From Leptolyngbyaceae cyanobacterium (GTDB lineage Bacteria > Cyanobacteriota > Cyanobacteriia > Cyanobacteriales > Aerosakkonemataceae), in contig DATNQN010000071.1 of the NCBI GenBank assembly GCA_036703985.1, positions 62,001 to 126,000 on the forward strand: DNA of 64,000 nt, given 5' to 3'. The number at the start of each line of letters is the position of its first letter. The stretch's first letter is position 1. The notes below the pieces were generated by a model. That model ran no database searches. It was not told the origin of the DNA and saw only the letters and a list, made by a program, of their open reading frames with translations. The position numbers and the translations under genes were made by a program. Shown here one piece after another: positions 2,200 through 64,000 of the stretch.

Positions 2200-4128
2200 T
2201 TATTTATTCTCCGAACCATCAGGCATAATTGCGCCTTCTAAATTAGTACCGTTTAAGTTGGCATCTTCTAAATTAGCCCCACTCAAGTTAGCTTCACTTA
2301 AATTGGCAGCACTCAAATTAGCGCCTTTAAAGTCGGCACCACTCAACAGAGTACCGCTCAAATCTGCGCCAAGTAAGTTAGCACCAACAAAGTTACAACT
2401 AGCCATTTTAGAATTTTTTAACTTAGCAAAACTCAGATTGGCGCGACTAAAATTAACGCGAGTAAGACTGGCAAAACTCAAATCAGCACGATTGAGATTA
2501 GCGCGAGTGAAGTTAGCTTCATCTAAATCTGCCTTACTGAAATCTGCTTCCGTTAACTCAGCTTGACTCAGATCGATCTTTTCTAACTTTGCACCGTTAA
2601 CTTTTACCCCTCTCAGAGAAACAGCATCTTTATTCAAATCTTGCAGTGCCATTAACCTAGCATAGCTAACCTCTACCCCTTCTGCTCCATCTATGATGCT
2701 CCAAGCTTGGTAGTGAGATTGTTTTCTTCGTTCGGGAATCTCTTTAATAAACAGAATCAAAGCCAACACGACACTGATTGCATCAGCACTTTCGAGAATT
2801 TTTGCAAGCCAAGAATTTTCATCAGTTATTAATACAAGTACGATCAGCACCAAAGCTACAATACCAGCAATTGCCCATGTCGGTAATTCCCAAAACGATT
2901 GGATTAACTTTGCTCTAACAATAACTAAATTTTCCTGTGATTGTTTTAGCGTTACTCCTTCTTTGAAAACAGATGTCAACTTTTCAATCTGTGCTTGCAC
3001 TTGAACTTTAATTTGTGCAAATTTTTGATTAATTAAATCAATCTGGAAATCGGGATATTTTTCTTTATTGACTGCTGCCACTCCTGCAATGTTAGTGTTA
3101 GAAGAAGCCGGCACTGTCTGGGATGGCACGGGGGAATTTACATAACCCGCACCTTCTAACATTACATTAGTAATCGCGCTATAAGCATCAACCCAAGCTT
3201 GCTTAACTTCTGTTGTCCAATCTTCCTTGAGATGTGTTTCAAAACTTTTCAGCAAAGCTTCACCAACTAATGGGTAATATTCTGCTATAGTCCCGTAACC
3301 AACGTGCCTAGCTCCTAAATCTTGCAGAACTGCTTTAAGCACTTCTGGCTTGCGTAAGCTTTCTACTACTAGTACCAAAGCAGAAATCAGCTTTTTTCGC
3401 TGCTTCTTCATATCGGTAGTAGAAAATAATGGTTTTACGCTGGGATTAGCTGAAAATAGATTTTCATAGAAACTAGCGGCAAATTCCTCCGCTTGAGGCT
3501 TGATTTTGGCAAAACTACTTTCAAGTAATTCTACAGATAAAGCGCTTGATTGCTGCGGCGTTGGTGTTGCTAGTTGCGCTGCTGGAGATACTGATAGAAC
3601 TGGTGCTGACTGTTTTACTGGGACAACAGTTTCTAATGTTTGTGGTGTAACTGGTATTGTCGAGACTTTTTCCTCAGTGGGGGAAGGTTTTGGCGGTGTC
3701 TCTAATGCCGAAGATAGTGGTGGATAACCAGCACCTTCAAACATGATGTTAGTAATTGCATCATAAGCATCCATCCACGCTTGCTTGACTTCGACTGTCC
3801 AATCTTCCTTTAAATACTGCTCGAATGTAGTCAGTAATGCTGCACCTACTAATGGATAATATTTAGGGATCGCCCCGTAAGAGATGTGTCTAGATCCCAA
3901 ATCTTGCAGAACTGCTTTGAGTACTTCTGGCTTCCGTAAACTTTCTACTATTAATACTAAAGAAGCTAGCAGCTTTTTTTGCTGTTTCTTCATATCGGTA
4001 GTAGAAAATAAAGGTTTTACTCTGGGATTGGCTGCAAATAGGTTTTCGTAGAAACTAGCTGCAAATTCATCTGCTTGAGGTTTAATCCGTGCGAAACTGT
4101 TTTCTAAAATTTCAACTTGCAAAGGCAT
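2200..4128 (-). CDS. Membrane protein with two globin domains and C-terminal pentapeptide repeats
   Basis: 642 residues with an unusual domain order. Globin 1 (about 1-135) and globin 2 (about 197-329) are both of the flavohemoglobin-like type, each with a B10-type Tyr (Y27, Y221 in FYENLF), an E7-type Gln (Q49, Q243) and a proximal F8-type His (H81, H275 in the DLG-x-RH-x-x-YG motif). By hand count the two are about 78% identical, so the duplication is recent or maintained by conversion. A Pro/Thr-rich linker separates them. Then come a basic, coiled segment (365-410), two hydrophobic segments (about 417-434 and 446-463), and a right-handed beta-helix of A(D/N)Lxx pentapeptides (about 505-633) ending GAIMPDG. 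No FAD or NAD reductase domain is present. A haem-based O2, NO or redox sensor on a membrane is a reasonable inference; substrate and partner are unknown. Confidence 0.88.
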   Translation of the reverse strand: MPLQVEILENSFARIKPQADEFAASFYENLFAANPRVKPLFSTTDMKKQQKKLLASLVLIVESLRKPEVLKAVLQDLGSRHISYGAIPKYYPLVGAALLTTFEQYLKEDWTVEVKQAWMDAYDAITNIMFEGAGYPPLSSALETPPKPSPTEEKVSTIPVTPQTLETVVPVKQSAPVLSVSPAAQLATPTPQQSSALSVELLESSFAKIKPQAEEFAASFYENLFSANPSVKPLFSTTDMKKQRKKLISALVLVVESLRKPEVLKAVLQDLGARHVGYGTIAEYYPLVGEALLKSFETHLKEDWTTEVKQAWVDAYSAITNVMLEGAGYVNSPVPSQTVPASSNTNIAGVAAVNKEKYPDFQIDLINQKFAQIKVQVQAQIEKLTSVFKEGVTLKQSQENLVIVRAKLIQSFWELPTWAIAGIVALVLIVLVLITDENSWLAKILESADAISVVLALILFIKEIPERRKQSHYQAWSIIDGAEGVEVSYARLMALQDLNKDAVSLRGVKVNGAKLEKIDLSQAELTEADFSKADLDEANFTRANLNRADLSFASLTRVNFSRANLSFAKLKNSKMASCNFVGANLLGADLSGTLLSGADFKGANLSAANLSEANLSGANLEDANLNGTNLEGAIMPDGSENK

Positions 4129-40963: not shown

Positions 40964-41962
40964 TTACTTCACTTTCAAATTCAAGTCACTTGTGTCTAAA
41001 ATTTTCCCTAACTGCTGTAACAGATTGTTTTCTTCTTGCTTAATTTCGTTTAACCTGTTAAGAATATAGTTGAATTGTTCTTTTGGATCGTCGCTGTCTA
41101 ATTTCATTGAAACAAACCCATTATTCATGGCAGTTACCGATGATTTAGAGCCAATACCTAGAAATGACTGTATCAGTTTGAAGGGTGATAATAAAACTGA
41201 TGTCCAAGCTTTTACAATTAAACCACTTAAAGCTTGTATTAATCCCCACATTAGCACAACAGATAGAACTAAAATTAATATAGAGTAGAGCGGATGATTC
41301 AAGAACCAAGCTAAGGTTCGGTGTTGAGTTGCCCAATCGCTAATATAGCCATTAATGCCATTTTCTATTCCTTCAGTTAATGACCGACTTAAGGCTTCAG
41401 TTTTTTGAATTGTTTCTTCTAAAGATGTTTTTGCTTGTTGCGATACTTGATTAATATTACTAATCGCTTGATTAGTTGTTTCAGTAACACTTTTAACTGC
41501 TAAATTGGTACTTGTAGCAACCGCTTCTTTCGCTTTATCAGTGATATCAGAAACAGTCATTGCCGCTTTGTTTGCAGCATGGTTAACACTGTCAATTGCT
41601 TGAACAGAAGTATGGGAAATTGTATCTTTGGCCTTTTGTGCAGTTTGGCCAATTGTTCTAACTGCATTTTTACTAGTTTCATTAATATTAGTAGCAGCCT
41701 GATTCAGTGAAATATTAGCTTTTTCACTTGCTTCTGTTAGTTTACTAACTGCTTGATTAGTTTCCTGATTCAGGTTATTTAAAATTGTGTTACTTGTTTG
41801 AATAACAATTTCTTTTGCTTGCTCAGTAGTTTTGGATAAGGAGTCTTTGGTTTGATTAGTAACTGCCGTTATAGTGTCAATTGTATCGACAGTTTTTTGA
41901 ACGAAAAAATCTTTACTATTTTGAAAGTCTTGAGAAACTTTTTCAAGAAGTGCAAGTTCCAT
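40964..41962 (-). CDS. Coiled-coil/LEA-like membrane protein, paralog A
   Basis: 332 residues. Residues about 25-205 are an imperfect 11-residue repeat rich in Thr, Ala, Asn, Gln and Ser (TTEQAKEIVIQT, SKNAVRTIGQTAQKAKDTI, AVKSVTETTNQAISNI), like the amphipathic repeats of apolipoprotein, perilipin or LEA proteins. A hydrophobic region (about 220-268, LNHPLYSILILVLSVVLMWGL) is followed by a linker and a C-terminal coiled coil (about 295-325, FNYILNRLNEIKQEENNLLQQL). A paralog of the same length and plan lies at 49986. Function unknown; membrane shaping or lipid-surface binding is possible. Confidence 0.85.
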   Translation of the reverse strand: MELALLEKVSQDFQNSKDFFVQKTVDTIDTITAVTNQTKDSLSKTTEQAKEIVIQTSNTILNNLNQETNQAVSKLTEASEKANISLNQAATNINETSKNAVRTIGQTAQKAKDTISHTSVQAIDSVNHAANKAAMTVSDITDKAKEAVATSTNLAVKSVTETTNQAISNINQVSQQAKTSLEETIQKTEALSRSLTEGIENGINGYISDWATQHRTLAWFLNHPLYSILILVLSVVLMWGLIQALSGLIVKAWTSVLLSPFKLIQSFLGIGSKSSVTAMNNGFVSMKLDSDDPKEQFNYILNRLNEIKQEENNLLQQLGKILDTSDLNLKVK

Positions 41963-49985: not shown

Positions 49986-50984
49986 TTAACGTAGATTTTC
50001 GTTAGATTTCAAGATAGATGTTACTTCTTGTAATAAATCAGTTTCTTCTTGCCTTAACGCTTCTAATCTTTTGAATATGTAGGTTAATCTTTCTTTTTTA
50101 TCTTCATTTACGGGTGGGGGAGCGGTGGGGTTTAAAGCTATAGCGTTGACTTGAGGGGATTTGTCAGTTACACCATTAGCAGTAAATCTGGCGAAAGGCT
50201 TCAAGCATAATCCTAAAATAAATTGACCGAATTTAAAAGGTGTTTGCAGTATTAATAAGAAAACTTGTTCTAAAAATTGACCGAGTGCTTTGATGAAGCG
50301 CTGTAACGCGAATATACTTAAAACTATGATAATTATGCCTAAAATGGGATGAGTGATGACCCAAGCTAGCGCTTTAGTTACCCAGGATAAGGCGGGATGA
50401 GCGTCAAGCCAAATTTTGATGGCATTTATTTTCTGATTCATAAAAGCAATCAGAGAATTTTCAATTGCAATAGAGGTTGTTTGAGTTATTTTATCAACTG
50501 TTCGATCTGTGGCAGAAGTAACTGTATCAACTGCATTAATTGCGGTTTGAGTAACGCTCTCAACTGTTTTGTGAGTAGCTTGATGGAAAGCGTTGACTGT
50601 GTTAGTAGCAGTTTGACTTAATGAATGTTTGGCATTTTCTGTTGTTTCAGTAACTCTATCTACAAATTGATCAGTTGCTTGGGTTACTTGATTAATGACT
50701 CTGTTGGTTAATTCGGAAAACCTAACCCCCCAGCCCCCTTCCCTAGTAGGGAAGGGGGAGCCGGAAAACTGAGTTCTTGGTAGGAGAGAGGTTGGGGAAG
50801 GGGAGCCGGAAACACCCTCTTTTGGTAGGGGAGGGATTGGAAAGGGGGAGCCGAAAAGCCCCTCTCCTGGTAGGGGAGGGTCAGATCCGGCAGCCAATTT
50901 GCTAACCCGATCATTAACTGTTTGTTTCAGCTGATGAAGGGTTTCGGTAACATTTTGAGGCAGACTGATTTGCCAATTTGCCAT
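49986..50984 (-). CDS. Coiled-coil/LEA-like membrane protein, paralog B, with in-frame repeat insert
   Basis: 332 residues, same plan as the gene at 40964: amphipathic Thr/Ala/Gln repeats (about 90-185, e.g. NQVTQATDQFVDRVTETTENA), hydrophobic helices (about 205-260) and the conserved C-terminal coiled coil (YIFKRLEALRQEETDLLQEV, about 300-320). Unlike paralog A, residues about 34-89 are a Pro/Gly/Ser-rich stretch encoded by three copies of an intergenic-type repeat (nucleotides 50715-50885), read in frame and ending GGWGVRFSE. The N-terminal 30 residues match the start of the amphipathic region, so the repeat interrupts the original domain. Confidence 0.85.
   Translation of the reverse strand: MANWQISLPQNVTETLHQLKQTVNDRVSKLAAGSDPPLPGEGLFGSPFPIPPLPKEGVSGSPSPTSLLPRTQFSGSPFPTREGGWGVRFSELTNRVINQVTQATDQFVDRVTETTENAKHSLSQTATNTVNAFHQATHKTVESVTQTAINAVDTVTSATDRTVDKITQTTSIAIENSLIAFMNQKINAIKIWLDAHPALSWVTKALAWVITHPILGIIIIVLSIFALQRFIKALGQFLEQVFLLILQTPFKFGQFILGLCLKPFARFTANGVTDKSPQVNAIALNPTAPPPVNEDKKERLTYIFKRLEALRQEETDLLQEVTSILKSNENLR
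50715..50885. repeat. Three tandem units of an interspersed GC-rich repeat inside a gene
   Basis: About 50-60 base units containing GGGGGAGCCGGAAA and TAGGGGAGGG-type segments in three copies, flanked by an outer GGAAAACCTAACCCCCCAG boundary. The same family occurs in the DUF3769 gene at 62258-62341, also in frame and with the same boundary reading GTTAGGTTTTC. Confidence 0.8.
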
Positions 50985-61693: not shown

Positions 61694-64000
61694 ATGCCTT
61701 ACCCAGTTCCACCGCCCGAACCGCCTGCTATTATCAATCAATTACCATCGGTCAGTATTCAAGAACCTTTTGTTACCAGGGAACAACTGATTACCGATCG
61801 CCAACAGACCGCTAAAAACGAAATTTTGCCCCATCGAGATGACGGGGTGAGAGAAGGGAGAGCGCCGGAGAAGCTCGCTCCCATCTCCCCATCACTTCTA
61901 GATAGAAATACGATCGGGCAGCCAAAACAAGAGCCTATACCGGAACCTTCTAGTACGGTAAAAAGTGCGGCGATGTTAGGAGAGCCTTTGAGTTTGGGGG
62001 TTGCTGGGGAATCTGGGTCAGAATCAATTACTCCCAGCAAGATACTTTCCGATCGCGATCGGGGAAATAACGAAATAGCTGCGGATACTGCTGTGCGGGC
62101 GATCGACGAGATGTTGGCATCTGGCGAAATCGATCGATCTGTTAGTTCTGCGATCGAAGAGAAAGAAGAAGAAATCACCTACTCGACGCTACGGGATAGG
62201 GAACTCAGCCAAGATAATTTTGGTGAATTGACTGCCGGGGTTGACTCTTCCCCAACTACTCCCCTGCCAGGAGAGAGGCTTTCCCGCTCCCCCTTCTCTA
62301 CCCCCCTTAAAAAGGGGGATAGCGAGGTTAGGTTTTCTGAAGTTGGCAACAGTATCGCTCAAGCACCGACCAATCCCAGACGAAGAGATACTCTTCCTCA
62401 ATTAGAACCATCTCCCAATCCGAGAAGAACAGACACGCTTCCCCAATTAGAACCCTCGTCCCCCACTCCGAACGAGGAAATTGCACCAGCAGGACATATC
62501 GGGCCAACGATCGGCCCGATCCAGATCCAACCCCAAACTCAAAGACAACCAACTCAAGGAAATCAAGCGCAAGGCAATCAAATACCTGGTAGTACTGGGA
62601 CACCGGATCTGGGTTCGACGATCGTCGGAGTAGTGGAATTAGCTTCGGATCGTCAAGAATACGATGCGATTCGGCAAATCTTCACTGGGGAGGGAAATGT
62701 TTCCCTGCGGTATCAAGGAGGACTGATCGAAGCCGATCGCATTCAGGGTAACTTAGTGAATCGGATTGCCGTAGCGGAGGGCAGAGTGGCTTTCCAGCGG
62801 GGTCAGCAATCGCTGCGCGGTCAAAGACTGGTGTATAACTTGTTGCAAGACCGAGGGAACATCCAAAATGGCAGAGGGGAAATTTTTTCTCCGACTAGCG
62901 GGACGGATTTAGCGTTTGATTTGCCAAATACTGGTTTAGTGCCTCCTCTGGTGGCGGATCGACCTTTGAGCGATCGCCTGCTGGAAAGTCAACCAGCACA
63001 ACAAGTGACCAATCCAGGTCAACTGAATGTTTTGTTTGGCGGTACCAGACCCGGTAGCGGTTTACCGCCATTTGGTAGGGGCGGTCAAGTTAACCGCGTT
63101 CGTTTTGAAGCAGAGAATATTGAGTTTTATCCTAGAGGTTGGACTGCTACCAACGTAAGGCTAACTAACGACCCGTTTTCGCCGCCAGAATTGGAAATTA
63201 GGGCCGATCGCGCCGTATTGACCCAGGTATCGCCGTTGCGGGAAGAAGTGGTGCTGACGCGACCCCGTTTGGTGTTCGACCAAGGTTTGTCGATCCCGAT
63301 TTTGCGATCGCGCTACGTATTCGATCGCTCTCCAGGCGATCCGCCGATCGTGGTGTTCGGCTACGATGCAGAAGAACGGGGGGGCGTGTTTGTAGAGCGC
63401 ACTTTTAATGTTTACACAAGTCAACGAGTGCGTTTTCGGGTTACTCCTCAGTTTTTCCTTCAACGGGCAATTACTCAAGGTTTTGGTAATCCTGCCGAAT
63501 TATTTGGCGTGCGATCGAGATTTGATGCCGTGCTTGGCCCACGGACTGCGATCGGCGCGGCAGCAGTGGTGAATAACTTTGGCATCGAAGACATTGACGA
63601 AAAAGTACGGGCGAGTATGCGTTTGGTGCAAATTATCGGTACCAAGTTACCCCACCGACTTACCTTGGAGTACAGTTATCGCGATCGACTTTTCAACGGT
63701 TCTTTGGGATATCAAACCGTACAACAATCCCTTGGTGCTGTCTTGACATCTCCCCCCATAAATGTAGGGAAAACAGGCGCTATTTTGACTTATCAAGCTG
63801 GCGCACAATATATTAACGCCGATACCGATCGTTTAGACTTACTCGAACCGATCCGAGATAATAACCGAACTAATTTAAGTCGTTTCCAACTCAGCGCTTC
63901 TTTGTTCCGTCCCATCCTCCTCTGGCGAGGTAAACCTTTACCTGCCACCCCAACACAAGGTTTACGATACTCCCCGGTACCAGTAGTACCTAATATTCGA
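61694..64000 (+). CDS. DUF3769/LptD-like outer-membrane protein, 3' end outside window
   Basis: A frame open from the ATG at 61694 to the window end (769 codons, no stop). After a Pro-rich start there is a long disordered, acidic and Ser/Pro-rich region (about 15-300) holding an in-frame repeat insert (about 189-216) and a duplicated RR(R/T)DTLPQLEPS segment (about 231-256). Then comes a beta-rich, OstA/LptD-like domain: GNVSLRYQGGLIEADRIQGNLVNR, FQRGQQSLRGQRLVYNLLQDRG, FEAENIEFYPRGWTATNVRLTNDPFSPPELEIRAD, and alternating strands of a beta-barrel (RVRFRVTPQFFLQRA, LTLEYSYRDRL). This matches the cyanobacterial DUF3769 family, probably in outer-membrane lipid or LPS transport. No signal peptide at this start; an earlier start is not obvious. 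It follows psbI. Confidence 0.85.
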   Translation, partial: MPYPVPPPEPPAIINQLPSVSIQEPFVTREQLITDRQQTAKNEILPHRDDGVREGRAPEKLAPISPSLLDRNTIGQPKQEPIPEPSSTVKSAAMLGEPLSLGVAGESGSESITPSKILSDRDRGNNEIAADTAVRAIDEMLASGEIDRSVSSAIEEKEEEITYSTLRDRELSQDNFGELTAGVDSSPTTPLPGERLSRSPFSTPLKKGDSEVRFSEVGNSIAQAPTNPRRRDTLPQLEPSPNPRRTDTLPQLEPSSPTPNEEIAPAGHIGPTIGPIQIQPQTQRQPTQGNQAQGNQIPGSTGTPDLGSTIVGVVELASDRQEYDAIRQIFTGEGNVSLRYQGGLIEADRIQGNLVNRIAVAEGRVAFQRGQQSLRGQRLVYNLLQDRGNIQNGRGEIFSPTSGTDLAFDLPNTGLVPPLVADRPLSDRLLESQPAQQVTNPGQLNVLFGGTRPGSGLPPFGRGGQVNRVRFEAENIEFYPRGWTATNVRLTNDPFSPPELEIRADRAVLTQVSPLREEVVLTRPRLVFDQGLSIPILRSRYVFDRSPGDPPIVVFGYDAEERGGVFVERTFNVYTSQRVRFRVTPQFFLQRAITQGFGNPAELFGVRSRFDAVLGPRTAIGAAAVVNNFGIEDIDEKVRASMRLVQIIGTKLPHRLTLEYSYRDRLFNGSLGYQTVQQSLGAVLTSPPINVGKTGAILTYQAGAQYINADTDRLDLLEPIRDNNRTNLSRFQLSASLFRPILLWRGKPLPATPTQGLRYSPVPVVPNIR
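62258..62341. repeat. GC-rich interspersed repeat inside the DUF3769 gene
   Basis: Single copy of the repeat family also seen at 50715-50885, in the opposite genomic orientation and the same coding orientation. It reads CTCCCCTGCCAGGAGAG, CCGCTCCCCCTTCTC, then CCCCCCTTAAAAAGGGGG and GTTAGGTTTTCTGAA. It encodes TPLPGERLSRSPFSTPLKKG and EVRFSE without shifting the frame. Confidence 0.78.

Follow-up and report, generated by a model that had tools for sequence, protein, structure and literature searches.

A GC-rich hairpin repeat within a cyanobacterial coiled-coil protein gene is very probably an in-frame copy of a mobile element

The window analyzed here, a stretch of 64,000 nucleotides from contig DATNQN010000071.1 (C71) of a Leptolyngbyaceae cyanobacterium, contains a gene for a coiled-coil protein (gene B) in which a GC-rich set of repeats lies within the coding sequence. 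This raises the question of what the repeated stretch is, and how it came to lie in a gene that still reads through. We propose that it is, with high probability, a copy of a non-autonomous mobile cyanobacterial repeat which persists in genes only where it adds whole codons to tolerant loops. The product of gene B has, by reading, a hydrophobic, membrane-like segment, and its Pfam matches were all below threshold.

The initial annotation had described three tandem, GC-rich, hairpin-capable units inside gene B, with the reading frame kept across all three. Both points hold: the units are spaced 45 and 45 nt apart with 73–75% identity to unit 1 over 40 nt, and the 332 amino acid ORF stays open across the whole insert. 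The insert was rightly placed inside gene B, but its extent, given as residues 34–89, is corrected to residues 25–96 on the basis of terminal inverted repeats (Table 1), and the duplication at its flank contributes two further residues. Together, the element and one duplication amount to 222 nt, which is a multiple of three. The element has a GC content of 57%, compared with 36% for the remainder of the gene B ORF and 42% for the window. Among 100 shuffled versions of the window, none contained a match to the first hairpin (CCCCCTTCCCT/AGGGAAGGGGG), even when up to 3 mismatches were tolerated. The core is matched by a covariance model, R1, constructed from 11 copies, whose three stems, an outer one and those of two hairpins, contain 26 consensus pairs; window coordinates of R1 matches are the contig position minus 62000. 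None of the 26 pairs shows changes on both sides among the 11 copies, so that there is no covariation support, and the pairing therefore rests on sequence complementarity.

Table 1. Coordinates of the features in the window
Feature	Position	Strand	Basis
Host gene B, 332-aa coiled-coil protein	49986..50984	-	ORF list
Paralog A, insert-free	40964..41962	-	comparison with gene B
Whole inserted element, 216 nt, 72 codons	50697..50912	-	terminal inverted repeats common to other genomic copies; flanking duplications
GC-rich core ACCTAACC...GGGT, 162 nt, drawn as family consensus	50720..50881	+	R1 matches 50719-50806, 50805-50893
First hairpin CCCCCTTCCCT/AGGGAAGGGGG, perfect 11-bp arms, 3-nt loop	50734..50758	.	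pattern search without mismatch; inverted repeat I1
Internal unit 1	50749..50788	+	direct repeat D1
Internal unit 2	50794..50833	+	direct repeat D1
Internal unit 3	50839..50878	+	direct repeat D1
Terminal inverted repeat GACTCTGTTGGTTAATTCGG	50697..50716	+	16/20 vs family end GATACTGTTGGCGAATTCGG
Terminal inverted repeat GCCAATTTGCTAACCCGATC	50893..50912	+	14/20 vs family end GGCAATTCGCCAACAGTATC
Target-site duplication ATTAAT in gene sense	50691..50696	-	sequence comparison
Target-site duplication GTTAAT in gene sense	50913..50918	-	5/6 identical to ATTAAT
Second family copy (L077), in frame in long ORF	62241..62334 (C71:124241-124334)	-	R1 match

The stretch had been considered derived since paralog A, a distant match to gene B (E 8.8e-10), lacks it. 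A comparison with orthologs agrees with this: four genomes of the same family (G003, G004, G007 and G009) possess stop-free orthologs of gene B with 49–55% identity over the C-terminal 239 amino acids, all without the insert. From these five insert-free sequences and the short duplications at the flanks we conclude that the insertion is derived. Because the orthologs are only approximately 50% identical, the empty site was deduced from the duplication. Where exactly the element ends in gene B is not fully certain: the core is directly followed by SELTNRV, which admits an alignment with residues of the orthologs, although in other host genes, too, a similar peptide such as FSEFANSI follows the core. 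As gene B is known here from sequence alone, it might be regarded as a pseudogene or an assembly artefact. The open frame of 332 residues, the conservation of the C-terminal 239 with four stop-free orthologs, and a high coding score downstream of the insert all argue against this, and we consider it very improbable.

A search of the organism's own genome (7.68 Mb in 151 contigs) with R1 gave 136 matches on both strands, and BLAST with the window repeat gave 59 pieces. Merged, these define 76 candidate places, 45 of which are strong (at least 45 bits, or found by BLAST). Family copies occur both between genes and inside genes of unrelated function, and the core is mostly about 85–160 nt across the measured copies. 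The weakest R1 matches (about 24 bits, 35-nt cores) include another short hairpin repeat. This separate 35-nt repeat (GCCCTCCC...GGGAGGGGT) is present at L097, L099 and L101–L105, mostly in intergenic positions and with weak R1 scores. A further hairpin repeat, of the CCCCCCTTTTTAAGGGGGG type, takes the place of the first hairpin or is lodged within it in L048, L058, L064, L066, L068, L072, L074 and L077, which suggests nesting or recombination between repeat families; in L077, the second copy in the window, the hairpin that substitutes for the first one is of the CCCCCTTTTTAAGGGGGG type. No family was matched when six loci were searched against Rfam at the gathering threshold.

One could see in gene B an ordinary, fast-evolving Pro/Gly-rich linker whose DNA resembles other sequences through low-complexity chance. 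The peptide is compositionally biased, and loops at such sites do differ in length between relatives. However, near-identical DNA occurs at dozens of places, intergenic ones and unrelated genes included; the copies share hairpins and ends, some of them with duplications; and the stretch is missing from the orthologs and from paralog A. Since the DNA is dispersed outside genes too, we reject the low-complexity linker as hardly credible. Nor did we encounter the situation which the initial annotation had set against a mobile repeat, namely distant genera whose orthologs carry these residues although their genomes contain no other DNA of this kind.

Both terminal repeats (at least 14/20 at each end) were located at 9 of the 76 places, the window copy included. 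Three of these nine (L055, L046 and L088) have exact 6-bp duplications, with agtgaa, ttctct and ttctgc among the three; five lack a clear duplication, and the window copy has a 5/6 match. In a one-ended copy, L068, ttagct was read at both sides. The majority of the family consists of bare cores that have neither terminal repeats nor a visible duplication. The element would thus consist of a core folding into an outer stem and two hairpins which, in some copies including that of gene B, is wrapped in terminal inverted repeats of about 20 bp and would have left a 6-bp duplication at insertion. A transposase acting in trans would have moved it. Genes of the Y1_Tnp (RAYT) type were found at five places in the genome, none less than 20 kb from a copy and the nearest on the same contig at about 22 kb; at this distance, mobilization by RAYT was rejected as an explanation. 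Eight stretches with terminal-repeat-like sites and no core were inspected as candidates for a parent transposon, and none had a full pair around a transposase. Contig C134 (L245) has, at about position 2508, an exact 15-nt end of the terminal repeat, located shortly beyond a TnpB-like ORF (2579-3862, minus strand) and next to a tRNA-like sequence, both named by reading; no second end was seen there.

How the copies relate to reading frames was assessed with an in-frame hexamer model, rather than a gene caller, trained on long ORFs totalling 142 kb, taken from the window and from seven 20-kb stretches; 588 of 600 window pieces were called correctly, this being a test on training data. Judged from 180-nt flanks, 18 of the 76 places lay between two coding flanks of one frame that stayed open across the element. 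Of the others, 28 had one coding flank and 24 had none, and there were 2 each with flanks in different phases, with a stop, and with flanks on opposite strands. Considering whole ORFs, 31 places, or 30 at a stricter score, had a coding signal on either side of the element and an ORF running through it uninterrupted. These 31 are open by construction of the criterion; they include gene B and also a 113 amino acid ORF (L106) which is probably spurious. No gene-breaking copies were seen, the four candidates with a different phase or a stop adjoining gene ends when read in six frames. Truncated genes may be hidden among the places with one coding flank, not all of which were read, and the absence of broken genes may partly be due to long-broken genes which no longer score as coding. 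In-frame copies occupy 24 of the 45 strong places, compared with a null chance of 0.138 each (the mean share of open frames in non-genic copies, divided by three for random entry). This rate points to survival of in-frame copies, and not to aimed insertion.

Two readings dominate among the 31 places, (-, phase 1) with 14 and (+, phase 0) with 10, and give peptides such as LTSPPTPLLQGEGS..PPFPxREGGxGGLG and NLTPQPPSLxGKGE. The insert peptides contain 18% Pro and 17% Gly, as against 4.7% and 6.4%, respectively, in the rest of the hosts. Copies had nominally more open frames than dinucleotide shuffles, 2.79 vs 1.93 for genic and 2.48 vs 1.92 for non-genic copies. The length of the core, taken from ACC to GGT, is divisible by 3 in 19 of 22 genic copies and in 10 of 21 others (Fisher p = 0.0097). 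It was measurable at 51 of the 76 places, and eight matches with 35-nt cores (one genic, seven not) were dropped as belonging to another repeat; with these kept, the counts are 19/23 vs 10/28 (p = 0.0015). The genic exceptions to the length rule are L042, L062, L052 and L106. It had been suggested that the lengths and codon phases of the family let it enter genes without destroying them. The core lengths bear this out as a description, but not the idea that they evolved for that purpose: loss of frame-breaking insertions explains the pattern of length and phase equally well. Selection would have removed copies that introduced a frameshift or a stop codon, or that landed in a packed region of a fold. 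The survivors would lengthen tolerant loops or linkers by whole codons, and would be translated as a Pro/Gly/Ser/Leu-rich and probably unstructured peptide.

Among the host proteins, the seven checked received the Pfam names IleRS-type class I synthetase, ABC exporter, FGGY kinase, Orn/Lys/Arg decarboxylase, MenC, heavy-metal P-type ATPase and penicillin-binding protein. The IleRS with an in-frame copy, encoded on contig C137, is the only one detected in the genome at E<=1e-100. Its insert of 54 residues contains internal units at a spacing of 36 nt and falls in a loop whose length varies; all 28 alignable relatives lack it (29 relative loci, one incomplete), and with the best solved IleRS the alignment breaks off at residue 287 and continues from 349. 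The 36-nt units of IleRS, like the 45-nt units of gene B, could represent later tandem growth that also kept the frame. The repeat is probably now part of the host proteins, its translation being deduced from the open frames, and a single-copy tRNA synthetase with an insert is the best available hint that insert-bearing proteins work. An eroded copy in the IleRS of G001 (L149), suggested by the peptide KPSLKGKGK, was discarded with an R1 score of only 10.1 bits (E 1.1).

The presence of GC-rich hairpins inside an essential gene such as that of IleRS might also be taken to mean that the element is lost on the way to the protein, whether ahead of translation or in the course of it, through intron-like splicing or ribosome bypassing, so that the product is free of the insert. 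Such a process would need neither a kept frame nor a stop-free insert, yet in-frame copies are common (31 of 76). There was also no frame-breaking intragenic copy among the four candidates read, and no Rfam match in the six loci. We consider removal or skipping highly unlikely, and prefer a repeat that is translated with its host.

Two further hosts contain copies in the same loop in more than one genome. In MenC, the loop holds a copy in the minus orientation in the own genome (L078) and one in the plus orientation in G020 (L207); being opposite, these represent separate insertions. In a NERD/helicase-like gene, so named by reading, the element occupies the same loop in the same orientation in the own genome (G000, 26 bits with R1), in G003 (67.8 bits) and, eroded, in G004 (22.3 bits, E 2.4e-4). 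It is not in G007, G009 and others among the 20 aligned, and G007 and G009 belong to the genus of G003. Plain vertical inheritance was not retained as the explanation, since with G007 and G009 lacking the element repeated insertion is equally possible. Sharing of this loop between G000 and G003, with erosion in G004, could be read as a sign that inserts are kept because they are useful, the element having been domesticated to supply new protein segments on which positive or stabilizing selection acts. The patchy pattern, with two members of the genus of G003 lacking the element, speaks against this, and we think it unlikely. For a repeat that merely survives in tolerant loops, a benefit to the host protein need not be assumed.

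The family extends to other cyanobacteria: of 40 related genomes searched with R1, 29 gave matches at E<=1e-5. Among the best matches listed in three of these, 14 of 43 copies are in frame (G003 9/21, G020 2/12 and G012 3/10), the coding calls having been made with the model trained on the genome of the window; together with the 31 of 76 places in the own genome, this favours the earlier reading, which had called for such a genome-wide count. None of these best 43 listed matches had both flanks coding on one strand with the frame broken. In G012, two copies (L216, contig C76, 6041-6130 and 6968-7057) are in frame in one ORF of 794 amino acids. A CHAT-like protein (named by reading) carries copies that agree in position and orientation in G020 (L204) and G012 (L215), which represent two families; either shared or repeated insertion would account for them. 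Plasmid DNA contained similar sequence in four records, all cyanobacterial; of the two examined, H2 begins with the final base of a TPR gene and H4 is intergenic. A search of plasmids with the encoded 30 amino acid peptide gave no match.

The in-frame behaviour resembles that of the Rickettsia palindromic elements (RPE), as had been proposed; we draw an analogy and claim no membership. RPE are short palindromic repeats lying in frame in many unrelated genes and encoding a peptide of some tens of residues (PMC10969869), and their sequences end in CGTC (PMC3733652). The cyanobacterial family is likewise palindromic and hairpin-forming, agrees with the RPE size of about 100–150 bp, and is in frame in many functionally unrelated genes (31 of 76 places, including IleRS, MenC, the P-type ATPase, the penicillin-binding protein and the ABC exporter). 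It differs in belonging to another phylum, the likeness considered being one of features; in its three-stem core, with terminal inverted repeats and a 6-bp duplication in some copies; and in its ends, since the copies start with ACCTAACC and end with GGT, with no shared CGTC end by reading. GTAG/CGTC-tagged REPs, as described in 2013, are hairpin repeats, some of them cyanobacterial and some wholly inside ORFs, including those of tRNA synthetases (PMC3733652). According to the same paper, the GTAG-15 dimers of Anabaena variabilis sit inside longer palindromes, much as the core of our family sits in its terminal repeats. Unlike REPs and REPINs, the family has no invariant GTAG, the edge of loop and stem varying (TGCAG, GGTAG, CTTAG), and no RAYT (Y1_Tnp) gene near its copies. 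Nezha is an example of a prokaryotic MITE in cyanobacteria (PMC10969869, PMC3733652). With MITEs the family shares terminal inverted repeats, target duplication, the lack of an internal transposase ORF and a number of copies in the tens; it differs from them in that only part of the family has terminal repeats, the rest being bare cores. The small dispersed repeats of Nostoc, attributed to Elhai et al. (2008), are reportedly 21–27 nt long and mobile-looking; both kinds are small, mobile-looking and cyanobacterial, but the core of our family is mostly about 85–160 nt.

The titles and abstracts listed in searches of the open-licence literature contained no report of this family or of in-frame repeats in cyanobacteria. 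In-frame repeats as such are already known, from RPE and from REPs inside ORFs of several bacteria, and, judged against the papers cited above, the cyanobacterial family is new within the open-licence literature searched. A bolder and rather doubtful possibility is that the family itself has been shaped as translatable, with an open frame on each strand, whole-codon core and unit lengths and a 6-bp duplication equal to two codons, and that it seeds loops which outlive the DNA repeat, thereby acting as a phylum-wide source of variation in protein length. For annotation, a warning follows, since Pro/Gly-rich peptides such as LTSPPTPLLQGEG and NLTPQPPSL in cyanobacterial proteins may be derived from the repeat and mislead homology searches. 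If our proposal is correct, in-frame mobile repeats would not be restricted to Rickettsia but would be a feature of large cyanobacterial genomes, single-copy housekeeping enzymes included, in which the same loop is hit repeatedly. The insertions could then be counted as a natural experiment on which loops of which proteins accept an extra 30–70 residues, and could help to address the question of whether new protein sequence arises from mobile DNA.
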